From positions 1 through 41,389 of IMG/VR virus record IMGVR_UViG_3300029787_000111: DNA of 41,389 nucleotides. The stretch is one strand, 5' to 3'. The notes under the pieces are model-generated. The model had not been told where the DNA came from. It saw nothing but the letters and a program-made list of their open reading frames with translations, and did no database searches. The position numbers were made by a program, and so were the translations under genes. The DNA comes from a virus. This document shows, one piece after another, positions 7,442-34,431 of the stretch. Numbering within the stretch: position 1 is the first letter of the stretch; each line of letters opens with the position of its first letter.

Positions 7442-8110
7442 ATGGTATCAAAGAGAAAAATAACTGATTTTATAGGTTTAGTAGCCGACACAGCACAAAC
7501 ATCTCATTATGAGTTATCTTTTGATGGTTTGTCTGGTGGTCTTTCTAGATTTTTAACTTCAAAGGGAGTGGACAAAGATTTTATTCTAAGAAACGCTGGA
7601 TTACTTTGTAGCAATGCAGTGCTACCAGGTACTCAATTACAAACTCATGATGCAGATCATAATTTTACAGGTGTAACTGAAAAATTTGCAAATAGGAGAT
7701 TATTTGTAGATACTAATTTACAATTTTATGTTGATAAAGAATATAAAATGTTAAAATTTATTGAACATTGGATTGATTATATTACAAATGGGTCTGAGAT
7801 AACTGGTATAAACAAAGATCAAGAAGGGTATTTTTATAGAATGAGATATCCTAGAGAGAGGACAGATGGGTATAAATGTGATAGAATAAAGTTAGTTAAG
7901 TTTGATAGGGATTATAAAAATCAAATTGAATATACTTTCTTCGGAATGTTTCCTAGGAGTTTAGACTCAACTCCTGTCCAATATGGGGACTCCCAAACTT
8001 TAAAAATAAGTGTTAACTTCTCATATGAGAGGTACATATGTGGTAAAGTGACAAGTTTAAGTCGTAATATCGGTTCAAATGAAAACTTTTTAAGATCACT
8101 TTTACCCTAA
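7442..8110 (+). CDS. Tail tube-fold protein, probable gp54-like tube initiator
   Basis: The 222-aa protein has the layout of the T4 tail-tube family (gp19/gp54): an N-terminal HYELSFDGLSGGLSRFL segment, a mid-region SNAVLPGTQLQTHDAD (the tube proteins' characteristic 'PG' loop), a FVDTNLQFYVDKEYKMLKF strand-helix and a C-terminal FFGMFPRSLDSTPVQYGDSQ / LKISVNFSYERY strand pair. It is first in the rightward hub block behind a doubled late promoter and just before the gp26-like gene. The likely role is initiator of tube polymerisation on the baseplate (gp54). The major tube protein gp19 would normally be longer-conserved and placed with the sheath gene, which is not here. Exact T4 gene equivalence is uncertain. 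Confidence 0.65.
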   Translation: MVSKRKITDFIGLVADTAQTSHYELSFDGLSGGLSRFLTSKGVDKDFILRNAGLLCSNAVLPGTQLQTHDADHNFTGVTEKFANRRLFVDTNLQFYVDKEYKMLKFIEHWIDYITNGSEITGINKDQEGYFYRMRYPRERTDGYKCDRIKLVKFDRDYKNQIEYTFFGMFPRSLDSTPVQYGDSQTLKISVNFSYERYICGKVTSLSRNIGSNENFLRSLLP

Positions 8111-8135: not shown

Positions 8136-8852
8136 ATGCCATTACCAAAAATTAATACTCCAATTTATGAGTTGACGCTCCCTTCTACTGGGAAAAAAAT
8201 AAGATATAGACCATTTCTTGTTAAAGAAGAGAAAGTGTTGATTATTGCACTTGAATCGGAAGATACAAAACAAATTACAAACGCTATAAAAAGTGTTATT
8301 AGTAATTGTATTTTATCAAGAACTGTTAAGGTTGAAAATTTATCAACCTTTGATATAGAATATTTGTTTTTAAATATTCGTGGTAAATCTGTAGGTGAGG
8401 AGGTTGAAGTCATGGTGACATGCCCAGATGATAACGAAACCAAAGTTCCTGTAACTATTCCTTTAGATGAAATAAAAATATTAGAGGATCCAGATCATAA
8501 TCGTGATATTGAGTTGGATAAAAATTTAAAAATGAGAATGAAATATCCTTCTTTATCTGAATTTGTAAAAACTAATTTTGATGTGAATGATATGGGAATG
8601 AAAGAATCATTTGAATTAATTGCATCATGTATTGAACAAGTTTTTAATGAGGAAGAGTCTTGGAGTGCATCTGATTGCACAAAAAAAGAGTTAAATGATT
8701 TTATTGAACAATTAAATTCTCAACAATTTAAAAAAGTAGAGAATTTTTTTGAGACTATGCCTAAATTATCTTATACTGTTAAGGTCAAAAATCCTAAGAC
8801 AAAAGTAGAAAATGAAATAATTTTGGAGGGTCTGTCCGATTTTTTCGAGTAA
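8136..8852 (+). CDS. 26: gp26-like baseplate hub assembly chaperone
   Basis: The zero-frame product is 238 aa and looks like the T4 baseplate protein family (gp26 type): PLPKINTPIYELTLPSTGKK, then RYRPFLVKEEKVLIIALESE, VKVENLSTFDIEYLFLNIRG and a C-terminal region rich in Glu/Lys. In T4 this class helps build the baseplate hub. In other phages, proteins with the same 'RPFLVKEEK' opening serve as the short tail assembly chaperone. The coding sequence ends GAT-TTT-TTC-GAG-TAA and carries a complete -1 frameshift signal at that point (8825-8883), so it probably has a longer second product (see the 8136-9037 entry). Confidence 0.85.
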   Translation: MPLPKINTPIYELTLPSTGKKIRYRPFLVKEEKVLIIALESEDTKQITNAIKSVISNCILSRTVKVENLSTFDIEYLFLNIRGKSVGEEVEVMVTCPDDNETKVPVTIPLDEIKILEDPDHNRDIELDKNLKMRMKYPSLSEFVKTNFDVNDMGMKESFELIASCIEQVFNEEESWSASDCTKKELNDFIEQLNSQQFKKVENFFETMPKLSYTVKVKNPKTKVENEIILEGLSDFFE

Positions 8853-9037
8853 GTATGACTCATACAAGTCTTGAGTCATACTTTAAATTGAATTTTGCCT
8901 TGATGCAGCACCATAAATATTCATTAACTGAGCTTGAAAATATGATTCCTTGGGAAAAGGAAATTTACATATCATTACTACAACAGTACATTGAAGAAGA
9001 AAATTTAAAACAACAGCAACAAGGAAGTGGAATCTAG
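8136..9037 (+). CDS. Predicted -1 frameshift product: 300-aa chaperone fusion
   Basis: Reading 237 codons of the gp26-like gene through TTC (8844-8846), slipping back one base and continuing CGA-GTA-AGT-ATG from 8846 gives 63 further codons to the stop at 9035-9037, without an intervening stop. The fusion resembles lambda gpG/gpGT, in which the T extension recruits the tape measure and tail tube. The C-terminal addition has the tail-chaperone look MQHHKYSLTELENMIPWEKE followed by an acidic LLQQYIEEE helix. This is inference from sequence; the fusion protein has not been observed here. Confidence 0.75.
8825..8883 (+). promoter_or_regulatory. Programmed -1 ribosomal frameshift signal
   Basis: Three elements are in the expected order. 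An internal SD-like GGAGGG (8825-8830) lies 9 bases before a slippery heptamer T-TTT-TTC (8840-8846) in the correct zero-frame phase. After a 4-base spacer (GAGT) comes a perfect 12-bp hairpin: AAGTATGACTCA (8851-8862), a 9-base loop, and TGAGTCATACTT (8872-8883). The zero-frame stop (8850-8852) straddles the base of the hairpin. The dnaX gene of E. coli uses the same three components. Confidence 0.85.
8855..9037 (+). CDS. Small tail-chaperone extension ORF (T-like, 60 aa)
   Basis: The 60-codon ORF encodes a helical protein with the motif MQHHKYSLTELENMIPWEKE and a C-terminal LLQQYIEEENLKQQQQGSGI. It lies at the place of T4 gene 51, but is far shorter than T4 gp51 (249 aa). Its ATG follows the gp26-like stop by two bases with no proper SD and lies inside the stem of a hairpin. 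It is therefore probably made mainly as the C-terminal part of the frameshift fusion, although reinitiation at the ATG is possible. Its 3' end overlaps the next gene by 11 bases. Confidence 0.75.
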   Translation: MTHTSLESYFKLNFALMQHHKYSLTELENMIPWEKEIYISLLQQYIEEENLKQQQQGSGI

Positions 9038-10523
9038 TATCTCAAGAAAACCTAATTTAAGTCCTGCTGTAACTGGTATAAATCCTGTTACGGGAGAATA
9101 CTTATCCACTAAAGAAAGGATTACAATTTTTAGAAAAAGAAGAATAGATGTAGGTAAAGTATTTGGAAGAAGAACTGATTTATCAAAATATGGTGCGATT
9201 GTAAAGGCTCCAAAACCTATGAGTCTTGAAAATAGAGTTGCAGATATAGAAAGTATGGTAATGACGATAGGTGATAAGTTTAAAAAACTTCAAGATTTTG
9301 TAATTAATAATGAACTCTTAAATCGTAAGTTTGCAATAAAAGATGAACAATTAAAACTCAAACAAGATGAACGTCTTGCATTTGAAAAACAAGAAGAGGA
9401 GAATGAAAACGAAAAAAAATTAAATAAAACTCTTAGTGTGCCGATGACTAGAGTTGCAAAAAAAGCTCAAGGATTTTTAAGTAGTCTCATGAAAGCCTTT
9501 GGTTTTTTATTTGGTGGTTGGTTAACTGATAAGGCATTTAAATTTTTAGACGATGAAAAAAGTGGAGATAAAGATAAGATAAGTGAGATAAAAGAAAAAG
9601 TTATTTCAAGCACAGCACAAGTTTTGGGAGTATTTTTGTTTATGAATGCTTTCATAGCAAAATTACCAGCGATAATAGCAGGTGTTGCAACTTCGGTTGC
9701 TTCACTTGGAGTCTTAATTGGTAAATTTTTACTTAATCCTGCAGGATTAAAAGCACTGGCAGCTTTAGGATTGGGATACTTAGGTGCCAAATATGTTATT
9801 GAACCTGGTGTAAAATCAATTGCAAATAAACTTGCTGGTGGAGTAAATGCTGATGAAGACACGCAAGCAGCTTTTAGACAGGCATTTGCAAATGAAGAAC
9901 AAAAACTAATTGCAGCAGGTGTTCAACCTCCATCTAATGTGAATTCTCGAAATGCGATGCTTATAGATGTAGCAGGTCAAGAAAGCAACATGGGTATAGA
10001 CCAAAATACAGGACAATTTGGAGAACTATATCTTAAATCTATAAACCCAGAAACAAATAAACCATATGCAACTCCTGAACAAGAAGCAGCATTTGAAGAG
10101 TATAAAAAAAATGTAAAAAATATTAGAAAAATTGAAGCAGATATGAGACCCACATTAAAGTCGAGAGATTCAACTGAACTTGATAAAAGAGATGCTCAAG
10201 TTGAAGCTATGGATCAACTTGGTTCTCAAGGATTTTTAGAAGAAAAACAAATTAATAATGAAAATATAGAAAAAATGAATATAAAGGATGATACATCAGC
10301 ATTTACTACTTTAGATGAATTTGTTAATTATTCTTATGATAAATTATCAACTCCACCGAAGGGAACAACAAATATAATTAATATTGATGGTGGACAAAAT
10401 AGTGGTGGTAATACATCTTATAATCAAGAATCATCGACAACTGGAATTGCAAATGTAAATCCCGTAAATACCGATGATATTGCACGTACTGAGACAGGGT
10501 TAGCACTTAACACAGGCTCATGA
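9027..10523 (+). CDS. Coiled-coil/hydrophobic structural protein at the tape-measure position (498 aa)
   Basis: This is probably a virion protein. The N-terminus is NPVTGEYLSTKERITIFRKR, followed by a coiled coil (about 65-135, MSLENRVADIESMV... to EEENENEKK), a helix with FGFLFGGWL (158-166) and a long Ala/Gly/Leu-rich hydrophobic stretch (199-256). The second half is hydrophilic and Gln/Asn-rich. The usable start is a GTG at 9027 that overlaps the previous gene. An AGGA sits almost directly against it, which is unusually close, and a rare ATC start at 9039 is an alternative. The position after the chaperone pair and before the hub gene, plus the coiled coil and buried-type helices, suggests a tape-measure or hub-core protein. 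No T4 homologue is recognised. Confidence 0.7.
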   Translation: MESSISRKPNLSPAVTGINPVTGEYLSTKERITIFRKRRIDVGKVFGRRTDLSKYGAIVKAPKPMSLENRVADIESMVMTIGDKFKKLQDFVINNELLNRKFAIKDEQLKLKQDERLAFEKQEEENENEKKLNKTLSVPMTRVAKKAQGFLSSLMKAFGFLFGGWLTDKAFKFLDDEKSGDKDKISEIKEKVISSTAQVLGVFLFMNAFIAKLPAIIAGVATSVASLGVLIGKFLLNPAGLKALAALGLGYLGAKYVIEPGVKSIANKLAGGVNADEDTQAAFRQAFANEEQKLIAAGVQPPSNVNSRNAMLIDVAGQESNMGIDQNTGQFGELYLKSINPETNKPYATPEQEAAFEEYKKNVKNIRKIEADMRPTLKSRDSTELDKRDAQVEAMDQLGSQGFLEEKQINNENIEKMNIKDDTSAFTTLDEFVNYSYDKLSTPPKGTTNIINIDGGQNSGGNTSYNQESSTTGIANVNPVNTDDIARTETGLALNTGS

Positions 10524-11755
10524 ATTTAAATCTTTCCTCTAGAAATATAAAAAACTCCCTGAGTGAAAAGGTTCAGGGTATATTTTCTGGTGTCGGAAAA
10601 ACAATTAAAAAAACAAATAAAATTAAAAGAAATACTAGAGCATTAATTTTAAAAAATTATAGAAAAAGATTGAGAAGAAAAAAATTTGAAGCAGAAGAAA
10701 GAAGATTAGAAAATGCAAAAAAATTAAATAAAAAATCTTCTTCTATTAGTACAAAAAATATAGGATCTAATTTAATTAAAGCTGTATCACTTTTATTTGC
10801 TGGATGGTTGATAAAAAATTTACCAAAAATAATAGAGTCTATTAAGGATGTTATTAAAAAGATAAACAACTTTGTTGATGGTACGAAAAAATTTGTGGAT
10901 TTTCTAAGTCAAAATATGACTGAGATAGTTTCAAAATTAATTATTTTTAGTAAATCACTATCTGATATAAATTTTAAACAATCATCATCCAAACTAACAC
11001 GAAGTATGCAAAAACTTAGTGGTGAATTTAAAAATATAAAAACACTTACAGACGGTAAACAAAAATTATTAAAAAGTAAATATAATTCATTCAAACAAAA
11101 CCCAAATCCAAAGGGGAAAAACAATTTAAAGGGGAAAAATAGATCTAAATCTAAACCTAAAAATGTAAGAGGTGGTGGTACTAAACTTAGTAATAAATTA
11201 TTTAAAGCACCCCAAATTCCTAAACCTAAAAAAGTTCCGTTTAATTTAACTCAAAGATTAAAGAATATGTTCACTCTTAAAAATGTTAAATCTTTTGCTA
11301 AAGGAAGTCTTAAATCAGGTGTTTATTTTGGAATAGACTACACTTTAAACTTAGGAGCTGATTATGTAATGGATCAAACAGTTGGTAAGGCAGTTGATTC
11401 TAGTATAAAAAATAAAGTAGATCAAAGAATAGCAAGTGAAGGACGTGAAAATGTAATCAAAGATCTTGAAAATCAATTAGCTCTGGAAGTTAAGAAAAAA
11501 CCATTACCATGGTGGAAAAATGTATTGTCTCTTGGATATGGGGAAATATTTACTGGACCTAATAAAAGGACAATGGATGTATTAAATCGAAAACTTGATA
11601 TTGCTAAAGATAAAGATATAATTATAATTAATAATTCATCTAATAATAATGGTAATAGTTCTACCATAAACAATAAATCATCATCAACTGTTATTATTGG
11701 TGAAAAGAAAGGAACAAAAATTGAAGATTGGCAGCATATTAAATTAGGAGAGTAG
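10520..11755 (+). CDS. Basic coiled-coil structural protein related in layout to its neighbour (411 aa)
   Basis: The 411-aa protein starts at an ATG overlapping the previous stop (ATGA). It opens with a very basic region (RNTRALILKNYRKRLRRKKF), a short coiled coil (EAEERRLENAKKLNKK), then LLFAGWLIKNLPKII (91-105), which parallels FLFGGWLTDKAFKFL in the preceding protein. A Lys/Ser/Asn-rich linker (about 180-235) precedes a second hydrophobic patch (SGVYFGIDYTLNLGADYVMD). The last 60 residues are Asn/Ser-rich with poly-Ile. The two proteins look like diverged copies in the place where T4 carries gp28/gp29. Function is inferred only from position and composition. Confidence 0.7.
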   Translation: MNLNLSSRNIKNSLSEKVQGIFSGVGKTIKKTNKIKRNTRALILKNYRKRLRRKKFEAEERRLENAKKLNKKSSSISTKNIGSNLIKAVSLLFAGWLIKNLPKIIESIKDVIKKINNFVDGTKKFVDFLSQNMTEIVSKLIIFSKSLSDINFKQSSSKLTRSMQKLSGEFKNIKTLTDGKQKLLKSKYNSFKQNPNPKGKNNLKGKNRSKSKPKNVRGGGTKLSNKLFKAPQIPKPKKVPFNLTQRLKNMFTLKNVKSFAKGSLKSGVYFGIDYTLNLGADYVMDQTVGKAVDSSIKNKVDQRIASEGRENVIKDLENQLALEVKKKPLPWWKNVLSLGYGEIFTGPNKRTMDVLNRKLDIAKDKDIIIINNSSNNNGNSSTINNKSSSTVIIGEKKGTKIEDWQHIKLGE

Positions 11756-20676: not shown

Positions 20677-23600
20677 ATGCCAAAGTATTTAAGTGGAAGA
20701 GTTAAAAGAACGGATCAAGCTTATCTAAGCACTGACAGATATCAATATCTTGGATTAGAACAAGCTGAACCAAATCTAGGAGATCCACCTAGTGCATCAG
20801 GTTCACCAGGAATTCCTGTTGGTCAGAGATTACAGATTATATCAGTCGTTAATAGACCTGGTGAGAGATTCTGGATTCCTGTAGAGGGAGGATTAATACC
20901 AGGATCTATTAGTGTATTTGAAGAAGGCACCTTAGTTGGAGGTCCAAGTAGCACCACACAATTAGATTTTAGAGGAAATATTGTAACCGCAGAGGGAACA
21001 AGAACGGGGATGGATAATCCCGGTATTGCGGTAACAGTTACTATAGCACCACCAGGAACCGACGGACAAATACTTTTTAATGATAACGGTGATTTTAATT
21101 CTGCCACATTTTTTAACTATGACAATTCGACTGTTGGTGTTGCCTCAGTTGGAATTGGCACATCCTCCCCAACTCAAAGTCTACACATAAACGGAAATTT
21201 AAGATTAGAAGGTACAATATTTGATTTTAATAATGATGGAGGATCATCCGGACAAATACTTACAAAAAATAATGAAGGAGGATTAGAATATACAAATCCG
21301 GGATCAATTCAAGCTGGTGCTGGTGGAACAATATCAAACATGCAGTTTCATGACGACACAGGTCTAATTGATGGTGCATCTAATTTTGTTTATATTGAAA
21401 CAAGTAAAAGAGTAGGAATAGGAAGTACACAACCTAAAGGTTTGCTTGATGTTTTAGGAGATACAAATTTTTCTGGAATAAACACTTTCTCAAATTTAAT
21501 AATTACAGGAGTATTAACTGCATCACAGGCACAGGGTGGTCTTGACTTTGAAACTGATGTTAGATTTAAAGGAGCAAATTATAATGCTGAATGGGATATA
21601 TCTACAAGTTCATTTGATTTTAATGATAATGCAAAATTAAAATTTGGTAATGATTTAGATTTTGAAATATTCTTTGATGGATCTTCAAAGATTATGAATG
21701 ATACGGGGACATTATTTGTTCAAAGTGATGGAGGAAATAAGACAGAAGCAAAATTTATAGCTGGTAATGCTGTTGAATTGAATTTTAATAACGTTAAACG
21801 ATTCGAAACGGTTTCCACGGGAGCTATCGTGACTGGTATTTTTACAGCCACGGAAGAAATAAGATCTGCAAAAATTACTACAATACAAAATAATTTTGTT
21901 GATGTAGATGTATCTGGAGTCGCAACTATCACAGAGGCAGATATAAACGTATCTGATATTGAACAAGCAAGAATAGGAGTTGCAACTGTAAGCACTAAAT
22001 TAAATGTTACAGGATTTACAACAACAAAAGATTTATTCGCAGCAGGTGTTGGAACATTTTTTAAAGTAAATGTTGACAATATTGTTATAGATGGAAACAA
22101 AATAGAAACAACAAGTGGTAATTTAATTTTTGAATCTGCCTCAAATACAATAACTTTAAATGATGCGATATTTGTCAATAATTTAGACGATTCAAATGAT
22201 ACAGACACTGGATCGATCATATCACAAGGTGGTATGGGTATTGATAAAAATTTAAATGTTGGTGGAGGATTATCAGTTACCGGACCTCCGGTAGGAGTTG
22301 CAATTACTCTAGCAGCGGCAGGTGGTATCACGACTACAGGTGGTGATTTATATGTTGGTGGAAATATTTTTACACAAAACGATATAATTTTAGATGACGT
22401 ACAGGCAAATAGTTTAATAGTAAGCGGTTTATCTAGTTTTATAGGATTGAGCACTTTTGGAAATGGAATTATAGTTCAATCTGGTTTTTCAACATTTAAA
22501 GATCAAGTTATAGTATCGGCTGCGGTAAGTGTTTCTGATGATGTAAGCATCACTGGAGTTGCGACTGTTAGTATTGCAAGTTCAATTTATGTGAGAGATA
22601 CTGCTGGTGTTATATTCGGTGATGATAATGATCTTAAGATATATCATAAATCTGGTGGTGGTAGTTATATTGAAGAAACTGGTTTAGGTTCTTTAGTAAT
22701 TAATAGTAATATCATAGAATTAAAAAATGCAGACGATGATGAAAATCTTGCAAAGTTTGTTGAAGGTGCACAAGCAGAATTATATTACAATAACATAAAA
22801 CGACTCTCTACTTCAGGAATGGGAATCACTGTTACTGGAATTACATCAACTGTGGATTTATGTGTGACTGGTGTTGTTACATCAAATTTAACAGCAGGTA
22901 TCAGTAATGCTTTTGATTTAGGATCAGATGCATCTACATGGAGAAAATTATATATTAAAGAAATAATTGGAACTGAAAAAGTAACTGTTGATGAACAAAC
23001 AGTTAATAGATTAACAGTCACAGGAGTAAGTACGTTTGATGGTGATGTTGACATTAATGCAAATGTTGATCATGATGGAAATTATGACTTATCAGGTGGT
23101 TTAAAAGTAGGAGGAATATCTACATTTCTTGGTAATCTTGATATTAATGCAAATGTTGATCATGATGGAAATGTTGATCATGATGGAAATTATGACTTAT
23201 CAGGTGGTTTAAAAGTAGGAGGAATATCTACATTTTCTAGTGGAGTTGGTATAGCTGATTCAATATTTCATATTGGGGATAATAATACTGCAATAAGATT
23301 TCCTGCTAATGATACGTTTACAGTAGAAACTAATGGTGATGAAAGACTTCGCATCACATCTGATGGTAAAGTTGGTATCGGAACTGATCCCTTTGGAATC
23401 TTTGAAGTTCAAAAGGATGGTGTTCCAGCAATCATATCAAATTATAATAATTCAAAACACATTCAAATGGATGCTGGTGGTAGTGGGGCAGGATTTCAAT
23501 TAACTACTGGACATCATTTTGCAGTAAACCATCAACCATTTGTAGATAGAGGAACAAATAATAATTTAACAGAAAAATTTCGCATCACACCAACAGGTGA

Positions 23601-26600
23601 CGTTGGTATCGGAACTAATAATCCTACTGGCATAGATGCTCTTGTGAATAATAATGCAACGTTAGCAGTTGGTGTCTTAACCGCAACTAACATTTTTGGT
23701 CAAGTTCTTGTTGAACAAATTGATCAAATTATTCAAAATTTAACTGCAAACAGATTAAGAGTTACCGGTATATCCACATTTGAAGGAAACGTTTTTGTAG
23801 GAACTGGTGCGACTGTTGGATTTGGAACAACAGCATTCTTCCCAGACGGTGCAAAAATTATTTTTGGTGATGATGATGATTTTAGTATCGTTCATGATTA
23901 TAGAGATACCAAGTTTGTTAATGATTCAGGTCAATTTTTAATTACTTCAGATGATTTAGAAATTAGAAGTACAACAGGTGATAAACCATATTTGACAGCA
24001 ACAGTTGGATCAGCAACAACAATATATCACAATGCAAATAAAAGAATTGAAACTACTGATTATGGTGCATTAATAACTGGTGTTACATCAACAACTGATC
24101 TCTACGTATCTACTAATTTAAGATCGAATTTAATTCCTAAGTATAATCAAAATTTAGATCTTGGAAGTAATAGTTATAGATTTAGAGAAGTTTATGCTCA
24201 AAAATTTGTTGGTCAACTTGATACAACTCAGGAAGAAACGGTTACTGGTAATTTACTTGTTACTGGTATTTCAACGTTTTTAGGTATAGCAACCTTTACA
24301 CAACTTGGAATTAATACTGATGGCACTGAGTTATCATCAGATGTTCCATTTAATATGGTTGGTATCGCATCAGTAACAGGTGATATTGTAGCAAAAGCAT
24401 TTAATACTAATGATTACACAGTTCTACATGGTGGAACGATTGAATTAAATCGGGCAGCTAATGATGCATTCATAGATTTTAAAACAACATTTGCAGAAGA
24501 TTTTGATTGTCGTATTGGAGCTGAAAATAATGGATTAGTAATCAGTGTTGATGGAAGTAACACTACAAAATTTACTTTTGCTTCAAATGGCAATCTTGAA
24601 TTAGTGAATGATTTAGCATCAACTGGAGGATCTGATGGAATTTTTGGAATCTATAACTCTAGTAATAGTGGTCAAACTTCAATTGTAGTTAAAAAAAGTG
24701 ATGGCACTGAATTTACAATTGCAAATTTTGATGGAGATCCTCAATCAATAAATTTTGATGCTACAGTATTACCTAAGGATTCTTTAACTTATAACTTAGG
24801 GTCAAGTACCAAACGTTGGGATACTGTTTTTGCAAGAGAATTCAATGTTTCCACAGTAGTTGATACAAATGTTCTAGAGACAGGATCACTAAATGTAACA
24901 GGTCTTAGTACTTTTGGTGGATTGCTCCGTGCAAACGGTGGTGCAGATATAAGAAATATACAGGTTGGGGTGACTGATGATAATGAAATCGATACAGTCA
25001 CCGGAGATCTAACAATTGATTCTGCTGGTGGAACAACAATTATTGATGATAATTTCAATGTCACAGGAGGAAATGTTGATTTCAATCAAGGGTTGAATTT
25101 AAGTGGTGGAGTTGGATACAATTTAACTTTAGGTAATAAAGTTAATATTAGTGGTGATGGTGACGCATCATTTGTAGGTGTTGTTACATCAAAAGGATTA
25201 TTTGTAACTGGATTCTCAACAATAACAAATGATCTACTCCCTCAACATGGTGAGACTGTTAACATTGGAGCTGCTACTAGAAGATTTGATGTTATCTTTG
25301 CAAATTCTTTTGATGGTGTCACTTCAATAGATTCTAGCATCATTCAAGCCACTTCATTATTTGTAAGTGGTTTAAGTACATTCCAAGGGGCTGTTGATAT
25401 AGATGGCACCATCACTCATGATAACACTGCATTTTTTAATAGTGATGTTTATCTTGGTAATAATGATGCTGATACAATTACAGCAAATGCAAAATTCGTT
25501 ACAAATCTAATACCATCTGGTACAAGAAATCTTGGATCTAATGCAAATCAATGGAATAATCTTTATATAGATGGAACAGGAAATATTGATGCACTCGATT
25601 CTGATACTGCAAAAGTAAGAGATCTCGCAAATAATGAAGTCGTCTTTATCTCTGGTAATGATGGAAAATTAGAGGGTTCTTCAAACTTAACTTGGAATGG
25701 ATCGGAATTTTATATCAATGGAAATTTAAGTATCACTGGAAATTTAGTTTATGATGATGTTACAAACGTAGATGCTGTTGGTATCATCACAGCTGGTAAA
25801 GGTTTTAGAGCAACCACTGGTGGATTAATAATAAATTCAGGTATTTCTACATTCAAGGATAAGATCGAAGCAGAAAATGTCATTCAACCGATGTTTGGAA
25901 ATAGTGACTCTGTGGGTATCCAATGGAAATCTGATCCTGGTGGTGGATCGGGTGATAAGGCTTACATGCGTTACTACTCTCAGAGTGGTGAAAATATGAG
26001 ATTTGAAATTGGAATTGAAAATGATTCTAATGATGATTTGTATTTAAAGGCACCTCTTGTAACAGCATCAGGAGATTTGACTATCACTGATGATTTGTCG
26101 GTAAATGGTAACACTATTCTGGGTAATGCAGCAAATGATACCGTGACATTAAATGCTGATGTTGATAGTCACATATTACCATCTCATAATGCTTCAAATG
26201 ACACTGATGCCTCTGGTAAAGATCTTGGATCTTCAGGTGCTCAGTGGAGGAAAGTATACGCACGAGAATTTTCTGGTGCGGTAACTGGAAATGCAGACAC
26301 TGCAACACAACTGGCAAATGCAAGAACTATTGCAATCACTGGTGATTTAGCATGGAGTGTAAATTTTGACGGAAGCACCAATGTAACTGGTAATGGAACA
26401 CTGGCAAATATAATAAGTCCAGGAACTTTTGGAAGCGGAACACAAATCCCAGTTATTACAGTAGACGCAAAGGGTAGAATTACTACTGCATCAAATACTG
26501 GCCTTGATTTATCTGGTGCCACAGCAGCAGTTGCAAATAAAATAAAAATTAATAATACCAACACAAGTGGTGTTCATTATCTTGCCTTTATCAGTCAAGC

Positions 26601-28233
26601 TGGAGATATGAATGAGAAAGATGTATATATTGATGGTGAATTGACATATAATCCAAACACAAATATTTTAACAACAAGAGATATATATCCAGAATCAACT
26701 AACACTTATGATTTGGGGCAAAATGATACTAATCGATGGGAAAATGTATGGGCACAAAATTTTAGAGGTGGAACTTTCTTCGGAACAATTGATGACTCTG
26801 TTTCAGCATTTAATGTAAGCAGTAACATTGATGAAATATTCTCACGATCAGCTAATACTTTAACTGCAATCGATCCTGGTAGTGCTGATAGGTTAATATT
26901 TTGGGATGATGGTTCCGATGGTGGACAATTAAGATATTTGTCACTCGGAACAAGTTTATCAATTACTGATACGACACTCAATGTTGATTCTGCTGATGGA
27001 GGTTTCCTAAATGATGGAACATATGGTGATATTCAAGTAAGTAGTAATGGAACTGATTGGCAAATAAGAAATGGTGTTGTTGGATCTAATGAACTTGCAT
27101 CGAGTGGTGTGACACCAGGCACTTACAATTTTGCATCAGTTACTGTTGATGTGGATGGCAGAATTACAAATGCTTCAACTGGTTCTGCAGCAGGTGGGTT
27201 ATCGATAGATGGAACTGCTGGTAATATTCTGGAACTTGTTGGATCTGTATTGAGGGGTAAAAGTGCTGGTGCTGACAAAATTGTATTCTGGGATAATGAT
27301 GGTTATTTACAATATTTGACTGTAGGAGGTGGTCTTCAAATAAATGGTACAACACTTTCTGTAAACAGTAGTGAAGTTACCACAAGTGCAGCTGGAAGTA
27401 ACACTGAAGTTCAATTTAACAGTAATGGTAATTTTGGTGCAAGTTCATCACTTACTTTCGGAAGTGGTGCGTTGCAAGTTGGTCAAGCTAAATCTGCGAA
27501 TGGAAAAGGAGTAGCAATGACAACTGATGGTGGGATAGAAATTTATAGAAATTCGAGTGATGGTGCATATATTGATTTTACACAAGGAACAGATGATTCT
27601 GATTATCGAATTCAATTAAGAAATGGTAGTTCTCTTGCATTTGTAAATGGTAGTGGTACTGAAAGGTTTAGAATTAACGCTAATGGTGCATGGACATTTA
27701 ATAGCACCAGTAATTATGGATCTGTAGGTCAGGTATTGACATCAAATGCGAATGGTATGCCATCATGGGAAAATGAAGGTTCTGGAACTAGTGTAAATTC
27801 TTCTGACACTGGTAATGATGCTAATATTTGTCTGATAACAACTGGTGGAAGTTTAGATGACATATATCATGCTAATAGTAATAGAGCAGTGATCAGGGCA
27901 AGTGATGGTCGTTTAAGAGTGAAGGGTGATATCATCGCATTCCGTACTTCAGATATAAGATATAAAGATAATGTCTCTCCAATAAAAAATGCATTGGAAA
28001 AGGTAGATAATATTAGTGGAAACACTTTTGTCTGGAATTCAAATCATGCTGATGAAGGAGTTGAGGAGGTTGGAGTCATAGCTCAAGAAGTTGAAAAATT
28101 AAATTTACCTGGTTTAACAGAGACAAGAGAGGACGGAAGAAAAGCAGTAAGGTACGAACTGTTAATTCCATTATTAGTTGAAGCTATAAAAGAATTAAAA
28201 CAAGAGGTTGATGATCTAAAATCATCTAAATAG
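20677..28233 (+). CDS. Giant tail fibre with S74 auto-processing chaperone (2518 aa)
   Basis: This is the largest gene here, encoding a trimeric-fibre-type protein. An N-terminal attachment region (MPKYLSGRVKRTDQAYLSTD, about 120 residues) is followed by more than 2200 residues of short repeats built around VTGxSTF/VSGLSTF, GIGTxxPxxxLHV, NLGSSTKRWDTVFAREF and the DLKIYH module (three copies). The end is an intramolecular chaperone (Peptidase S74): TSDIRYKDNVSPIKNALEKV with Ser2425 as predicted cleavage residue and the Lys five residues on, then EVGVIAQEVEKLNLPGL and VRYELLIPLLVEAIKELKQE. Self-cleavage would release about 94 residues after folding. A near-identical DNA duplication lies at 23053-23235. 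Confidence 0.95.
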   Translation: MPKYLSGRVKRTDQAYLSTDRYQYLGLEQAEPNLGDPPSASGSPGIPVGQRLQIISVVNRPGERFWIPVEGGLIPGSISVFEEGTLVGGPSSTTQLDFRGNIVTAEGTRTGMDNPGIAVTVTIAPPGTDGQILFNDNGDFNSATFFNYDNSTVGVASVGIGTSSPTQSLHINGNLRLEGTIFDFNNDGGSSGQILTKNNEGGLEYTNPGSIQAGAGGTISNMQFHDDTGLIDGASNFVYIETSKRVGIGSTQPKGLLDVLGDTNFSGINTFSNLIITGVLTASQAQGGLDFETDVRFKGANYNAEWDISTSSFDFNDNAKLKFGNDLDFEIFFDGSSKIMNDTGTLFVQSDGGNKTEAKFIAGNAVELNFNNVKRFETVSTGAIVTGIFTATEEIRSAKITTIQNNFVDVDVSGVATITEADINVSDIEQARIGVATVSTKLNVTGFTTTKDLFAAGVGTFFKVNVDNIVIDGNKIETTSGNLIFESASNTITLNDAIFVNNLDDSNDTDTGSIISQGGMGIDKNLNVGGGLSVTGPPVGVAITLAAAGGITTTGGDLYVGGNIFTQNDIILDDVQANSLIVSGLSSFIGLSTFGNGIIVQSGFSTFKDQVIVSAAVSVSDDVSITGVATVSIASSIYVRDTAGVIFGDDNDLKIYHKSGGGSYIEETGLGSLVINSNIIELKNADDDENLAKFVEGAQAELYYNNIKRLSTSGMGITVTGITSTVDLCVTGVVTSNLTAGISNAFDLGSDASTWRKLYIKEIIGTEKVTVDEQTVNRLTVTGVSTFDGDVDINANVDHDGNYDLSGGLKVGGISTFLGNLDINANVDHDGNVDHDGNYDLSGGLKVGGISTFSSGVGIADSIFHIGDNNTAIRFPANDTFTVETNGDERLRITSDGKVGIGTDPFGIFEVQKDGVPAIISNYNNSKHIQMDAGGSGAGFQLTTGHHFAVNHQPFVDRGTNNNLTEKFRITPTGDVGIGTNNPTGIDALVNNNATLAVGVLTATNIFGQVLVEQIDQIIQNLTANRLRVTGISTFEGNVFVGTGATVGFGTTAFFPDGAKIIFGDDDDFSIVHDYRDTKFVNDSGQFLITSDDLEIRSTTGDKPYLTATVGSATTIYHNANKRIETTDYGALITGVTSTTDLYVSTNLRSNLIPKYNQNLDLGSNSYRFREVYAQKFVGQLDTTQEETVTGNLLVTGISTFLGIATFTQLGINTDGTELSSDVPFNMVGIASVTGDIVAKAFNTNDYTVLHGGTIELNRAANDAFIDFKTTFAEDFDCRIGAENNGLVISVDGSNTTKFTFASNGNLELVNDLASTGGSDGIFGIYNSSNSGQTSIVVKKSDGTEFTIANFDGDPQSINFDATVLPKDSLTYNLGSSTKRWDTVFAREFNVSTVVDTNVLETGSLNVTGLSTFGGLLRANGGADIRNIQVGVTDDNEIDTVTGDLTIDSAGGTTIIDDNFNVTGGNVDFNQGLNLSGGVGYNLTLGNKVNISGDGDASFVGVVTSKGLFVTGFSTITNDLLPQHGETVNIGAATRRFDVIFANSFDGVTSIDSSIIQATSLFVSGLSTFQGAVDIDGTITHDNTAFFNSDVYLGNNDADTITANAKFVTNLIPSGTRNLGSNANQWNNLYIDGTGNIDALDSDTAKVRDLANNEVVFISGNDGKLEGSSNLTWNGSEFYINGNLSITGNLVYDDVTNVDAVGIITAGKGFRATTGGLIINSGISTFKDKIEAENVIQPMFGNSDSVGIQWKSDPGGGSGDKAYMRYYSQSGENMRFEIGIENDSNDDLYLKAPLVTASGDLTITDDLSVNGNTILGNAANDTVTLNADVDSHILPSHNASNDTDASGKDLGSSGAQWRKVYAREFSGAVTGNADTATQLANARTIAITGDLAWSVNFDGSTNVTGNGTLANIISPGTFGSGTQIPVITVDAKGRITTASNTGLDLSGATAAVANKIKINNTNTSGVHYLAFISQAGDMNEKDVYIDGELTYNPNTNILTTRDIYPESTNTYDLGQNDTNRWENVWAQNFRGGTFFGTIDDSVSAFNVSSNIDEIFSRSANTLTAIDPGSADRLIFWDDGSDGGQLRYLSLGTSLSITDTTLNVDSADGGFLNDGTYGDIQVSSNGTDWQIRNGVVGSNELASSGVTPGTYNFASVTVDVDGRITNASTGSAAGGLSIDGTAGNILELVGSVLRGKSAGADKIVFWDNDGYLQYLTVGGGLQINGTTLSVNSSEVTTSAAGSNTEVQFNSNGNFGASSSLTFGSGALQVGQAKSANGKGVAMTTDGGIEIYRNSSDGAYIDFTQGTDDSDYRIQLRNGSSLAFVNGSGTERFRINANGAWTFNSTSNYGSVGQVLTSNANGMPSWENEGSGTSVNSSDTGNDANICLITTGGSLDDIYHANSNRAVIRASDGRLRVKGDIIAFRTSDIRYKDNVSPIKNALEKVDNISGNTFVWNSNHADEGVEEVGVIAQEVEKLNLPGLTETREDGRKAVRYELLIPLLVEAIKELKQEVDDLKSSK
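21631..21840 (+). repeat. DLxIYH fibre module copy 1 (divergent)
   Basis: Encodes LKFGNDLDFEIFFDGSSKIM...VKRFETVSTGAIVTG. It shares the order FG-DLxI-x-DG-x(10)-GxLxxxS-...-NxxKRFE-xxGxxVTG with five other copies in three proteins. Confidence 0.7.
22606..22842 (+). repeat. DLxIYH fibre module copy 2
   Basis: Encodes VIFGDDNDLKIYHKSGGGSY, then IEETGLGSLVINSN, ending YYNNIKRLSTSGMGITVTG. This is the most complete copy of the module. Confidence 0.8.
23053..23235 (+). repeat. Recent direct duplication, 75 bp and 93 bp copies
   Basis: The 75 bases at 23053-23127 recur at 23143-23235 with no substitutions that I can see. The second copy contains one extra 18-base unit (AATGTTGATCATGATGGA, tandem at 23152-23169 and 23170-23187). 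Both changes keep the frame, encoding INANVDHDGNYDLSGGLKVG twice. Identity at third codon positions means the duplication is recent. Confidence 0.9.
23845..24084 (+). repeat. DLxIYH fibre module copy 3
   Basis: Encodes PDGAKIIFGDDDDFSIVHDY, then FVNDSGQFLITSDDLEIRS, ending NANKRIETTDYGALITG. It is preceded by a GATVGFGTTAFFPDG segment nearly repeated before the copy at 35431 in the 711-aa protein. Confidence 0.8.
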
Positions 28234-28521: not shown

Positions 28522-31500
28522 ATGCCCCTGAATAAATTAGAGAATTTTATCAAGAATGTAGAAGGAAGGATACTTTATGTTAGTCCAAGTGATCTTGATT
28601 CAACAGACAGTATAACTAATGAAGGTAATTCGCTTACCAAACCATTCAAGACGATTCAGAGAGCTTTGTTGGAAGCAGCTAGATTCTCTTATGTAAAAGG
28701 TAATAATAACGATTTAATTGAAAGAACAACAATATTATTGATGCCTGGCGAGCATGTAGTAGATAATAGACCAGGTTTTGGTATTAAAAGAGAAAGCAAT
28801 ATCGCAAAAGCAATTTTGCCAGGACCTACAGGTGCCGTCCAGGCAAATGCTTCAATTTTTAATATTACAAAAAATTCAACTTTTGATTTAGAGCAAGAGG
28901 ATAATATTCTTTACAAATTTAATAGTGTATATGGTGGTGTGATTGTTCCTCGTGGAACATCAATAGTTGGTCTTGATCTTAGAAAGACAAAGATAAGACC
29001 AAAATATGTTCCTAACCCAACAACATCATATGAATCAGATCCAAAAAGTGCAATATTTAGAATAACAGGAACTTGTTACTTTTGGCAATTTAGTGTATTT
29101 GATGGTGATGAAAATGGAAAGGTATATACTGATTATGGTGATTTCTCTGCATCAAACAGAGTTAAACCAACGTTTTCTCATCATAAGTTAACCATATTTG
29201 AATACGCTGATGGTGTTAATAATTATGATAGATCTGGGTTGACAGATTTGGATATGTATTATGCAAAAGTATCAAATGCATATAATACTGCTTCAACTAG
29301 AGATATAGATCAAAAGTTTCCTGCAACTCCAGATGGATTTGCAAAACAAAGACCTGAGTGGGAGATTGTAGGTGCATTTGCTGATGATCCGATTAGTATC
29401 ACATCAATTGTTTCTGGAGATTTGCCAGGTGTTCCATCAAATAAGATCACCGTCACAACTCAATCTCCTCATGGATTATCTGTAGGAACTCCTATCAAAA
29501 TTAAAAATGTAAGTCCCGAAGCTTATAATGTATCAACAAAAGTTGCATTTGTTGATCCTGATAATGAAAGAGTATTTACATATACACTTGATGATTTTGA
29601 TCAAGATTTAAATCCAATTGGTAATGCATCTGGAAATCCTGGTGGGCAAGTAATAATTGAAACTGACACAGTATCAGGAGCCTCACCTTACATCTTTAAT
29701 ATTTCGATGAGATCTGTATATGGTATGAATGGACTTCATGCAGATGGAAGTAAAGCTGATGGATTTAGATCTATGGTGGTTGCACAGTTCACTGGTGTAT
29801 CACTACAAAAAGATGATCGTGCGTTCGTCAAATACATTGACACAAATAGAAATTACGAGGGTAATTTAGCATCAGATTTCTTTGGTGATCAATTAGCAGA
29901 AAAATCATCATCTACAAATCCCTCAACAGTCTATCATTTAGATTCGGGAGCAATTTATAGAAGTGGTTGGGAATCATGCCATATTAAAATGTCTAATGAT
30001 TCAATACTTCAAATTGTATCTGTTTTTGCGATAGGTTATAATAAACATTTTGAAGCATTGTCAGGTGGTGATGCCTCAATTACTAACTCAAACTCAAACT
30101 TTGGACAACTTGCTTTAATAGCTGATGGATTTAAAAAGAATGCTTTTGATAAAGATGATACATCATTCATCACTCATTATATTCCACCAAAGTCTATAGA
30201 GGAAAATATTAGTAGTATAGATTGGTTGTCTGTTGATGTTGGAGTTACTACAACATTGTCTACTGGTGGAGGAAATAATTCAGGTAAAGATAGAATATAC
30301 ATTTTTGGTTTTACTGATGCAGATAATGAACCTCCATCATTAACACAAGGATATAAGGTTGGTGCAAAAGATCAAGATCAGTTACTAGTAAAAATTAATG
30401 ATGTTAATTATTCATCCAATATTTTAATGTCGGATGGAGTGACGAGTTCTATAAAAGAATACAGTGTTGCTGCACCAATATCAAATATATTTCAAGTTGT
30501 GAGTGGACATGCTCTTCTCACAGGAGAAAAAGTCATTTTACAGAGTAAAGTTGGTGATTTACCAGAGAACGCATTAGAAAATAAAGTTTACTTTGCAATT
30601 AGATTATCAACAACCACATTTAGTTTAGCTTCTTCACTTCAAGATGCAAACAACGGAGAAGCAGTTTCAATGAATGGTGGTGAAAATTTAGTTATAAAAA
30701 GTAGAGTAGTTGATAAAAACTCAGGTGAGGCAGGATCTCCAATACAATTTGACTCAGATAACAGTCAATGGTATATTAACACCAATGCAAATAGTGAACT
30801 ATTTCAAGAATTAAATTCTCTTGGAACAGTTGGCATAGGTGGTCGAAAAATATCATTTATAAACAGAATTGCCGATAATAGAAGTATTGATGAAAAACTC
30901 TATAAATTAAGAGTTACGATTCCAAAAGAAATTACAAATGCTAAAAATCCTGAAAGTGGATTTTGTATCCAAGAATCTTCAACAACAGGATTAAGAACTG
31001 ATGCAGACTTTACATCAAAATCAAGAGATATTGCACTTACAAGACAAGATTTTGATTTTGATAGAAACTCAAGATTCATAAGCACATGTTCTTTTGATAC
31101 AGGCACCAAAGATGTCACAATTATTTCATCTAAACCTCATAATTTAAATGTTGGTGATTTAATAACAATTAAAAATGTAACAGACTCAGTTAATACAGTT
31201 GGAGCTGCTAATAGTGGATTTAACGGATCATTCACGGTTGATTCAGTCACTGATGGTTTAACATTCAAATATAAACCAGGTAAAACTATTCAAACCTCTC
31301 CTACAAATAATTTTAATGATAGAGTTGTTAACCTACCAAGATTTGAAAGAACAGATTTACAATCTAATATTTACACCTATAGAAATATTAAAATATCAGA
31401 TCACATTGGTCTTCAACAAGATGGTATATATCATCTTATTCCACTTAATGCAAGTTATTCAGTTCCTGAGGAGTTTACTGATCTTAAATTCAGTCAAAAT

Positions 31501-34431
31501 GTTGTTGACTTATATCCTCAACTTGATAGAGACAATAAAGATGATAACCCTCGTCCATCTACATCATTTGCACTTAGAAATCCAGTCGGTCAAGTATCTA
31601 CAAATGATTTAAAGAAAAGTATAACAAGAGAGACATCAGATTTACTTACAAAAAAACTTGGTATTGGATTAACCGTAACGAGTGTATCAGCTACTAGTGC
31701 AGGTTTATCTACAATTACTTTAGGAAATGATCATAGTCTTTCTGGAATTACAACTGCGAAATTAAATTCAGTTTCAAGTGGATTTAATAATGGTACATTT
31801 TATAATGTCAAAATTTTAACTGATGTAAACTCTGCATCTAATTCCAACTGGAAGGGAACTCTAGCAACAATTAATGTTACTGGTGGTAGTTTTGATTATA
31901 TTGATATTACAAACTCAGGTGGTGGTTATTCTGCTGGTGATATAGGATATATTGATAAAGCAATTGTCGGAACTGGTGGTGGTGATAATCAACGAAGAGT
32001 TAAAGACAAATTTGATCAAAATGCTGTTGGTTTAGGTGCAAGTGTTCTTGGATCAAGTAGTAATTTAACAATTCAAGTAACTGGATCTGGAATCACAACT
32101 GATTCTTACTATAGACTAACATCAGTTCCTTCAAAGAATAGTGTTGCTGTAGCTAAAACTACTGGTGATAGTGAAATTACAACGGATCAGTATGTAATTG
32201 TTGTTGGTCAGTCTGTTCAAATGACTGCGGTTACTTCAAATACTTTAACAACATTTACTTCATCAACAAATCCACATGGTTTAACAGTAGGTAATAGATT
32301 CCAGTTCAATGATAGTGCTAATAATAATCTTGGAACATTTATTGTTAAATCAAAAACAAGCACCACAGTATTTACTGCAACAACACATTTAAGTAATGGT
32401 ACAGTCAGTAATGGACATGTTCTTAAACATGCTTTTTCTGCTAACAACGCTACATCTGATATTGATGGTGAAAATCTATCTAAGAGAGGAGTTCCAATAT
32501 ATGGAAATGATAATGCAAAATTAGGTGCAAGTGTTGCGATATCAGATACTACGATACAAATATCACTTTTAAATGATCAAACTGCTATATTAAATCGTTT
32601 TCCATATGGATCTTACATTCAAATTGAAGATGAAATATTAAGAGTCTCAAAGAATAGTTTAACTGGATCTGGAAATAATAAAATAACTGTTATAAGAGGT
32701 GTATTAGGAACTTCACCATTAATTCATGCTAATGGATCTTACATTCAAAAAATTAAACCAATACCTATAGAGTTCCATAGACCATCTATCTTACGTGCCT
32801 CTGGACATACATTTGAATATCTTGGTTATGGTCCTGGTAACTATTCCACAGCACTACCTCAGGTACAAATTAAAACATTAACTGAGAGAGAAGAATTTTT
32901 ATCTCAATCACAAGAAAGAAGTGGTGGTGCAGTTGTTTATACAGGTATGAACGATAAAGGTGATTTTTATATAGGAAATAATAGAAAATCAGCTTTAACT
33001 GGTGAAGAGATTAGTTTTGATGTGCCCATACCAACTGTAACTGGTGCTGATCCATCAAGATTAAGTGTTATATTTGATGAAGTCACAGTAAAAGAAAGAC
33101 TTGTTGTGGAGGGTGGTAAATCTAATGCACAACTTTCACAATTTGACGGACCTGTCTCATTTAATGAAGATGTTAACATATACAATAATGTTAAAATAAG
33201 TCCAACAAATAATGAAGATAAAGAAAGTTTTGACTCAAGCACTGGAGCGTTGGTTGTAGATGGTGGTGTTGGTATTGCCGGAACAGTTAACATTGGTGCT
33301 GGATCATCAATTAATCTTCCAGATAATTCAAAATTACAATTAGGTGATGGTAATGATCTTCAGATTTACCATACTTCCAATACTAACTCAGTCATAAGAG
33401 ACTTTGGAACTGAATTATTCATTGATGCAGCTACTACTCATATTAGACATAATGTTGCACTTGCTCCGTCCATTGCCAAATTTAATGGAGGAGGATCTGT
33501 ACAATTATGGTATGATTATGCCAATTACAATGATCCTAAATTTGAGACTACTGCATCGGGAGTCATAGTAACTGGAATCTTAACTGCAACAAATGTATCT
33601 GTGAGTAGTTCAGTAACTGCTGCTGAATTCTTTGGAGATGGTGCTGGACTTACCAACACCGGTTCAACTTTAGCTGCTGGATCAGGTACCCAAAGGTTAG
33701 TCTTGACTTCACTGACTTCTGGTCAAATGACAAGTGCTGCCACAGACTCTGCACTAACATATAATTCTAGTGAAGATGTTCTTAATACAGGTAAATTAAA
33801 TGTAAGTGGTATTTCTACATTTAATAATCAGGTATTTTTACCTGATGGAGTAAAACTTGAGTTTGGAGGAGCTTCTTCTAACTCTGATTTAGAAATACTT
33901 CATGATGGTGGAAACTCTGTTATGAGAGAAACTGGAACTGGAAATCTATTCTTACAAAGTGATCAGATAGTTTATATCAGTAAAACTAATGGAACTTCCA
34001 TGATGGGAGAGTTTAGTGGTGCTGGTGGAGTGAAATTACATTGGAATGGTAGTAGTGCTGGACAGAGATTTGAAACAACTCAAACTGGTGTGAATATAAA
34101 TGGAGTATTAAGTGCTACTGATGATATTATTGCATATTCTACTTCTGATAAGAGATTTAAGAATAATATTTCACCAATTAAGCAAGCACTAGATAAAGTC
34201 AAATCAATTAGTGGTAACACATTTGATTGGAATGAGTTATCTAGTAAAAATGGTAGTGAAGTTGGTGTCATAGCTCAAGAGATTGAAGCACTTGGTCTTC
34301 CGGGTATTATAAGTGTACGTGAAGATGGCACTCTTGCTGTAAGATATGAAAAGTTAGTTCCTGTTTTAGTCGAAGCAATAAAGGAACTTTCATCTAAAGT
34401 CACTGCACTTGAAAACAAAATAAATAACTAA
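28522..34431 (+). CDS. Giant fibre/spike with N-terminal beta-helix and S74 chaperone (1969 aa)
   Basis: The N-terminal part (about 15-520) is a right-handed beta-helix-like domain: GRILYVSPSDLDSTDSITNE, KPFKTIQRALLEAARFSYVK, TTILLMPGEHVVDNRPG, later DASITNSNSNFGQLALIADG. It is related to the C-terminal half of the 1214-aa protein. The middle has beta-rich modules with PHGLSVGTPIKIKNV loops. After HTFEYLGYGPGNYS and NDKGDFYIGNNRKS it becomes a fibre with GALVVDGGVGIAGTVNIGA and two DLxIYH modules. The C-terminus is an S74 chaperone: STSDKRFKNNISPIKQAL with Ser1875 as predicted cleavage residue, EVGVIAQEIEALGLPGI and VRYEKLVPVLVEAIKEL. It is driven by its own late promoter. Confidence 0.93.
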   Translation: MPLNKLENFIKNVEGRILYVSPSDLDSTDSITNEGNSLTKPFKTIQRALLEAARFSYVKGNNNDLIERTTILLMPGEHVVDNRPGFGIKRESNIAKAILPGPTGAVQANASIFNITKNSTFDLEQEDNILYKFNSVYGGVIVPRGTSIVGLDLRKTKIRPKYVPNPTTSYESDPKSAIFRITGTCYFWQFSVFDGDENGKVYTDYGDFSASNRVKPTFSHHKLTIFEYADGVNNYDRSGLTDLDMYYAKVSNAYNTASTRDIDQKFPATPDGFAKQRPEWEIVGAFADDPISITSIVSGDLPGVPSNKITVTTQSPHGLSVGTPIKIKNVSPEAYNVSTKVAFVDPDNERVFTYTLDDFDQDLNPIGNASGNPGGQVIIETDTVSGASPYIFNISMRSVYGMNGLHADGSKADGFRSMVVAQFTGVSLQKDDRAFVKYIDTNRNYEGNLASDFFGDQLAEKSSSTNPSTVYHLDSGAIYRSGWESCHIKMSNDSILQIVSVFAIGYNKHFEALSGGDASITNSNSNFGQLALIADGFKKNAFDKDDTSFITHYIPPKSIEENISSIDWLSVDVGVTTTLSTGGGNNSGKDRIYIFGFTDADNEPPSLTQGYKVGAKDQDQLLVKINDVNYSSNILMSDGVTSSIKEYSVAAPISNIFQVVSGHALLTGEKVILQSKVGDLPENALENKVYFAIRLSTTTFSLASSLQDANNGEAVSMNGGENLVIKSRVVDKNSGEAGSPIQFDSDNSQWYINTNANSELFQELNSLGTVGIGGRKISFINRIADNRSIDEKLYKLRVTIPKEITNAKNPESGFCIQESSTTGLRTDADFTSKSRDIALTRQDFDFDRNSRFISTCSFDTGTKDVTIISSKPHNLNVGDLITIKNVTDSVNTVGAANSGFNGSFTVDSVTDGLTFKYKPGKTIQTSPTNNFNDRVVNLPRFERTDLQSNIYTYRNIKISDHIGLQQDGIYHLIPLNASYSVPEEFTDLKFSQNVVDLYPQLDRDNKDDNPRPSTSFALRNPVGQVSTNDLKKSITRETSDLLTKKLGIGLTVTSVSATSAGLSTITLGNDHSLSGITTAKLNSVSSGFNNGTFYNVKILTDVNSASNSNWKGTLATINVTGGSFDYIDITNSGGGYSAGDIGYIDKAIVGTGGGDNQRRVKDKFDQNAVGLGASVLGSSSNLTIQVTGSGITTDSYYRLTSVPSKNSVAVAKTTGDSEITTDQYVIVVGQSVQMTAVTSNTLTTFTSSTNPHGLTVGNRFQFNDSANNNLGTFIVKSKTSTTVFTATTHLSNGTVSNGHVLKHAFSANNATSDIDGENLSKRGVPIYGNDNAKLGASVAISDTTIQISLLNDQTAILNRFPYGSYIQIEDEILRVSKNSLTGSGNNKITVIRGVLGTSPLIHANGSYIQKIKPIPIEFHRPSILRASGHTFEYLGYGPGNYSTALPQVQIKTLTEREEFLSQSQERSGGAVVYTGMNDKGDFYIGNNRKSALTGEEISFDVPIPTVTGADPSRLSVIFDEVTVKERLVVEGGKSNAQLSQFDGPVSFNEDVNIYNNVKISPTNNEDKESFDSSTGALVVDGGVGIAGTVNIGAGSSINLPDNSKLQLGDGNDLQIYHTSNTNSVIRDFGTELFIDAATTHIRHNVALAPSIAKFNGGGSVQLWYDYANYNDPKFETTASGVIVTGILTATNVSVSSSVTAAEFFGDGAGLTNTGSTLAAGSGTQRLVLTSLTSGQMTSAATDSALTYNSSEDVLNTGKLNVSGISTFNNQVFLPDGVKLEFGGASSNSDLEILHDGGNSVMRETGTGNLFLQSDQIVYISKTNGTSMMGEFSGAGGVKLHWNGSSAGQRFETTQTGVNINGVLSATDDIIAYSTSDKRFKNNISPIKQALDKVKSISGNTFDWNELSSKNGSEVGVIAQEIEALGLPGIISVREDGTLAVRYEKLVPVLVEAIKELSSKVTALENKINN
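33319..33579 (+). repeat. DLxIYH fibre module copy 4
   Basis: Encodes DNSKLQLGDGNDLQIYHTSN, with an IAKFNGGGSVQLWYD strand and FETTASGVIVTG at the end. Together with the copy at 33841 it forms a tandem pair near the chaperone domain. Confidence 0.75.
33841..34110 (+). repeat. DLxIYH fibre module copy 5
   Basis: Encodes PDGVKLEFGGASSNSDLEIL followed by HDGGNSVMRETGTGNLFLQS and ending RFETTQTGVNING, immediately before the S74 chaperone. Confidence 0.75.
34419..34426 (+). promoter_or_regulatory. Candidate late promoter box AATAAATA
   Basis: AATAAATA lies in the last codons of the 1969-aa gene and ends 16 bases before the ATG at 34443. The same sequence precedes the gp26-like gene at 8109. It could give the 711-aa fibre gene its own late start. 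Confidence 0.5.

Follow-up and report, generated by a model that had tools for sequence, protein, structure and literature searches.

Gene organization at the gp26-like locus

The window analyzed here is the whole stretch of viral DNA, 41,389 nucleotides in length, and derives from a T4-like marine phage of the Kyanoviridae type, presumably with a marine cyanobacterium as host. The locus under study has the following features.

7442–8110, plus strand: tail tube protein (gp19-like), the gene immediately upstream of the putative chaperone pair; phrog_45 (5.5e-32), PF23849 (3.8e-15)
8136–8852, plus strand: predicted short form of the tail-assembly chaperone, TAC-N (gp26-like), 238 aa, stop TAA 8850–8852; PF12322 T4_baseplate (2.6e-75), phrog_150 (5.6e-83)
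8825–8830, plus strand: SD-like GGAGGG, presumed upstream frameshift stimulator, 9 nt 5' of the heptamer
8840–8846, plus strand: slippery heptamer T_TTT_TTC, phased X_XXY_YYZ, in phase in 164 of 169 distinct relatives
8846–9037, plus strand: -1 frame extension, predicted TAC-C (gp51-like), 63 codons from CGA 8846 plus stop; phrog_634 (5e-28)
8136–8846 joined to 8846–9037, plus strand: TAC-NC fusion, 300 aa, conceptual
8851–8883, plus strand: hairpin, presumed downstream frameshift stimulator, containing ATG 8855
8855–9037, plus strand: 60-aa ORF, the extension read separately from ATG 8855, as annotated in many cyanophages

In the frame of ATG 8136, the gp26-like gene ends with GAT TTT TTC GAG TAA from position 8838, and the -1 frame is free of stops from CGA 8846 up to TAG 9035–9037. 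Conceptual translation gives a shifted product of 237 + 63 = 300 aa, compared with 238 aa for the short form, and the predicted residues at the fusion junction are ...LSDFF-RVSMTHTSLESYFK.... The original prediction, made from the sequence alone, had placed GGAGGG 9 bases upstream of an in-phase T-TTT-TTC, followed by a 4-base spacer and a -1 frame open into the next ORF with a fusion of 300 aa. The first of these elements was found at 8825–8830, the heptamer and the spacer were confirmed to the base, and the open frame extends to 9037. The small ORF matches phrog_634, a family named "baseplate hub assembly catalyst" (gp51). A second match is to phrog_150, the gp26 family, at the very end of its profile (positions 240–278 of 282), implying that some phrog_150 members carry the extension in frame.

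Two ORFs of 498 aa (9027–10523) and 411 aa (10520–11755) lie between this gene pair and the next recognizable tail gene of the window. They have no clear family and are not recognizable as tape-measure proteins, and a BLASTP comparison of the downstream ORFs of the window with the tape measure of the Pelagibacter phage HTVC008M returned nothing significant. By position, one or both may encode the tape-measure protein, perhaps in split form. Further along the window, two very large ORFs are located on the same strand (20677–28233, 2518 aa; 28522–34431, 1969 aa).

Conservation of the slippery heptamer and the SD-like element

The gp26 ORFs compared were collected from 80 close relatives, named phages of many genera, and further viral contigs. 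A total of 196 ORFs were located, of which 169 are distinct. These 169 loci were chosen by gp26 homology without regard to the heptamer, whereas the codon figures from 110 non-redundant loci given below are conditional on its presence. Because the loci share ancestry and the counts are not independent events, p-values overstate independence.

In 164 of the 169 distinct relatives, an in-phase T_TTT_TT(C/T/G) lies no more than 6 nt from the gp26 stop and is accompanied by the same -1 extension, compared with a background of 16 in-phase T_TTT_TTN among 24,825 codon positions in related gene bodies. The heptamer, its phase, and the open -1 frame are common to cyanophages, a Pelagibacter phage, an Ochrobactrum phage, Aeromonas Angelvirus, large Vibrio phages, and Rhizobium/Sinorhizobium phages. 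The -1 frame runs across the gp26 stop in every intact heptamer-bearing relative and is open for about 54–68 codons in nearly all relatives, with a few contigs ending ahead of the -1 stop. The five exceptions are T2 gp26 (T4 type), Vibrio K483 and Klebsiella K751, which have only a U_UUC tetramer and keep the in-phase -1 extension, and two loci in which the gp26 frame is broken (L178 and L183). Relatives without the slippery site or with the small ORF off the -1 phase, which the original prediction had named as evidence against frameshifting, were looked for, and the set did not follow that pattern. Some groups have variant junctions. Three Ackermannviridae loci (L096, L208, and L209) have a -1 extension without an XXXYYYZ heptamer, the sequence ATT TTC ATT TAA providing an in-phase tetramer only, and two Vibrio loci (L092 and L210; K483 and K469) combine a -1 extension with the tetramer CTT TTC or CTT TTT and a TAATG-type overlap.

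Codon usage at the heptamer is strongly constrained. Across the 110 loci, the codon preceding TTT may specify Ser, Ala, Asp, or Asn, yet its third base is always T. For the second Phe codon, 103 loci use TTC, compared with 28% TTC in gene bodies. When the 237 columns of an 84-locus codon alignment were ranked by synonymous constraint, both Phe codons of the heptamer came out on top (ranks 1 and 2), and SSFF was the four-codon window with the strongest constraint in the gene. The SD-like element is under similar restriction: 88 of 100 non-redundant loci use GAG for the Glu codon that forms part of it, against a 31% share of GAG among the Glu codons of gene bodies, and the spacing of the element to the heptamer is invariably 9 nt. 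Judged from these alignments, the conservation of the putative frameshift signal is beyond chance.

A covarying hairpin in one cyanophage clade

The heptamer is followed by a 4-nt spacer (GAGT, 8847–8850) and an inverted repeat with arms AAGTATGACTCA (8851–8862) and TGAGTCATACTT (8872–8883) around a 9-nt loop. The predicted folding energy is -15.7 kcal/mol (z = -4.1), none of 200 shuffled sequences was as stable, and no other perfect inverted repeat of at least 12 bp with a hairpin-size loop was found in the 41-kb window. In 71 distinct loci, the covariation score was 0.174, compared with 0.096 +/- 0.006 after shuffling, and 0 of 500 shuffles reached it. The stem as drawn has 83.6% of cells paired in these loci, compared with 28–43% when it is slid. 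The pair 8860/8874 is an example, being U-A in 36, G-C in 24, and A-U in 6 loci; here the third base of an Ala codon tracks a second-position change in the -1 frame at the partner (Glu/Ala/Val). The perfect 12-bp hairpin of the original prediction is thus present in the window, but covariation backs a core of only about 10–11 bp, and the outermost pair, 8851–8883, is not conserved. Run without constraints on the mixed set, RNAalifold returned no more than three of the pairs, owing to the inclusion of loci that lack the hairpin.

In the gp26 tree, the hairpin occurs in one well supported group only (79 rows; 100/98), where a few losses are apparent, whereas the heptamer and the extension are present in all other groups. 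From this distribution, the hairpin looks like a later addition specific to one clade, and the heptamer like the shared element. The check across relatives proposed with the original prediction was borne out for heptamer, phase, and -1 frame, and for the hairpin in a single cyanophage clade only. A general requirement for the hairpin was rejected, given that lineages such as P-SSM3, P-SSM7, S-RIM2, ACG-2014a, and ACG-2014d have no hairpin and still retain the heptamer. A role as a terminator was also rejected, as the stem is AT-rich and no T run follows. Just downstream of gp26, two loci (L157 and L159) have kept the 3' arm (TGAGTCATAC) and lost the 5' arm with its ATG, and their -1 frame is open, which makes them natural variants with half a stem.

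Slippage of the RNA polymerase on the T run, rather than of the ribosome, could also yield mRNAs that join the two frames. The homopolymer that such a mechanism would use is present and reaches eight T at one locus (L033), but nearly all loci have exactly six T, and polymerase slippage usually needs more than six. In addition to the short run, the strict ribosomal phasing, the SD spacing, and the covarying hairpin all point to the ribosome, and transcriptional slippage was judged exceedingly unlikely.

Frameshift extension or separate initiation

ATG 8855 is located in the 5' arm of the hairpin, 2 nt from the gp26 stop. As the original prediction had held, the small ORF lacks a convincing SD: none was found at initiation spacing for this ATG, and GGAGGG ends 24 nt upstream. 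The locus could nonetheless encode two separate proteins, with the small ORF translated from ATG 8855 by termination-reinitiation, the hairpin regulating access to the ATG, and the heptamer being incidental. Such a model accommodates the presence of the ATG in the 5' arm wherever the hairpin is complete or partial (70 of 70 loci), the adjoining stop, the two CDSs in database annotation, and the TAATG/TGATG overlaps in some distant relatives; within the hairpin clade, an ATG in the stem could permit initiation of its own. However, in 29 of 110 loci the -1 frame has no ATG before the conserved domain that could start the whole extension, and in 25 of 110 it has no ATG, GTG, or TTG there. At such loci, annotators use an ATG inside the conserved domain or nothing. 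Moreover, the extension is conserved at the protein level from the shift point onward, including residues upstream of any ATG, the heptamer and its synonymous codons are fixed, and T4 has its long form, gp51, as one covalent chain. Of the 29 loci without an ATG, 23 retain the SD-like element at its usual position, so that the element tracks the heptamer, not a start codon. Based on the loci without an ATG and on this element, separate initiation was rejected as the main route, and two independent proteins are considered very improbable.

The annotation of gp51 reflects the same difficulty. In ACG-2014a and P-SSM7, the annotated start lies some 90 nt further downstream and within the conserved domain, because no ATG precedes that domain, and ACG-2014d has no annotated gp51. 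Misannotation of the extension is frequent (L086, L088, L097, L098, and L213), the gene model either beginning at an internal ATG that cuts the domain or being absent.

In the hairpin clade, the hairpin might serve twice, stimulating the -1 shift to TAC-NC and also controlling reinitiation at ATG 8855 to give free TAC-C. The strict co-occurrence of hairpin and ATG would fit this idea, as would the position of the ATG in the stem two bases past the stop, a place at which ribosomes in the course of termination would open the stem. If this were true, one locus would give rise to three chaperone forms, namely N, NC, and free C. The ATG may, however, simply be part of a sequence-constrained stem, it has no SD, and lambda T is not known to have a separate start. 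We regard this dual role as rather unlikely. It is compatible with the frameshift explanation, which it extends.

Relationship to T4 gp26 and gp51

PF12322 was found in both T2 genes, 26 and 51 (8.8e-64 and 4.3e-55). In profile comparisons by hhalign, the cyanophage gp26 aligns with T4-type gp51 at 3e-9 (columns 7–200), and the -1 extension aligns with the same protein at about 5e-7 (5.4e-7; columns 205–244), such that T4-type gp51 consists of a gp26-like domain plus the extension within one reading frame. Furthermore, a tblastn search with the small ORF matched the end of gp51 of Aeromonas phage Aes508 (E 7e-3). In both T2 and T4, genes 26 and 51 are neighbors with divergent orientation. By homology, gp26 and gp51 of T4 are paralogues, and the profile alignments suggest that gp51 is best read as the unshifted long form and gp26 as the short form. 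T4 is thus best read as making the short and long forms from two genes, and its marine relatives as making both by frameshifting. The proposal that the T4 gp26/gp51 pair is the equivalent of lambda G/GT is accordingly supported at the level of protein homology. A PDB fold search with a model of T4-type gp51 gave nothing usable.

Predicted function and mechanism

Several features make tail-assembly chaperones the most likely reading of these products: the tail tube gene upstream, the tape-measure gene of HTVC008M, which lies two genes downstream of gp51 (phrog_58, 8e-12), the ranking of a known chaperone in the structural search, and the similarity to lambda gpG/gpGT (reviewed in PMC5009743). 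In that search, an AlphaFold model of TAC-N (pLDDT 86.7, from a 51-sequence input) was compared with a PDB library, and both chains of 2ob9, the HK97 tail assembly chaperone, appeared at ranks 1 and 3. The matches have prob 0.69 and 0.57 with E 1.4 and 1.7, the one at E 1.4 covering 62 columns and not being significant alone.

Taken together, positions 8136–9037 are highly likely to encode a frameshift-made tail-assembly chaperone pair of the lambda G/GT type in a T4-like marine phage. Most ribosomes would terminate at 8850–8852 and produce TAC-N. A minority would slip by -1 on T_TTT_TTC, aided by the internal SD-like GGAGGG upstream and the hairpin downstream, and would continue to the end of TAC-NC. 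By analogy with lambda gpG/gpGT, TAC-N may coat the tape-measure protein, and the TAC-C extension may recruit tail-tube subunits to it. What the sequences show directly is the signal, how well it is conserved, and that the fusion is collinear with T4 gp51. We infer the occurrence of the shift and, with it, its rate, the product ratio, the partners, and the chaperone activity.

These findings bear on a widespread annotation. What is listed in cyanophages as gp26 and as the gp51 "baseplate hub assembly catalyst" is most likely a single gene with two products, and these are most likely chaperones of tail assembly and not subunits of the hub. Several genomes have no entry for the second product or let it begin at a false internal start. 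One function appears to have two encodings: the marine relatives rely on a frameshift, and T4 on a duplicated gene. In addition, a compact -1 signal supported by covariation offers a test case for ribosomal recoding in marine cyanobacteria.

Comparison with known systems

Frameshifting is reportedly described as conserved in several T4-like groups, with T4 using genes 26 and 51, in the abstract of a 2022 study. That study (Vladimirov, Gautam and Davidson 2022, Virology 566:9–15), as cited in PMC10885494 and PMC12846349, has T4-like tail-assembly chaperones as its subject. The PRFect paper (PMC10885494) refers to it for the statement that some T4-like phages have a short and a long TAC gene, one of each, instead of frameshifting. 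In the Adele paper (PMC12846349), it is the source given for -1 signals of the poly-T type in T4-like TAC-N genes. The central claim for T4-like phages is therefore very probably already in print, and the original suggestion that such frameshifting was undescribed in this group does not stand. As far as these citations show, the genes are the same as those considered here, namely the gp26/gp51 family. No paper was found on an SD-like element plus covarying hairpin in cyanophages, which is weak evidence of novelty as most subscription journals were outside the search. Within the sequences compared, what is added here is the full three-part putative signal (SD-like element, heptamer, and covarying hairpin) in one cyanophage clade.

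The T4 genes 26 and 51 resemble the present locus in being homologous short and long forms, with gp51 collinear with the conceptual fusion, and differ in being separate, divergently transcribed genes without a frameshift. Lambda G/GT (Xu, Hendrix and Duda) shares the short and the -1 extended form, with the shift at the 3' end of the first ORF. The tail tube gene is likewise located just upstream, as lambda V precedes G/T. The protein family here is distinct and, at 238 aa, longer than the lambda short protein of about 140 aa. The heptamer here is T-rich, in contrast to GGGAAAG in lambda, and is accompanied by an SD-like element and a hairpin. Signals of the dnaX and IS911 type share the SD-like element, an X_XXY_YYZ heptamer, and a downstream hairpin at compatible spacings. 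The ranges applied to E. coli signals place the SD 6–17 nt before the second base of the motif and the hairpin 4–10 nt after (PMC4066793), and both spacings in the window fall within these ranges. Unlike the A-rich heptamers of dnaX and IS911, the heptamer here is U-rich, and the presumed host is a marine cyanobacterium.
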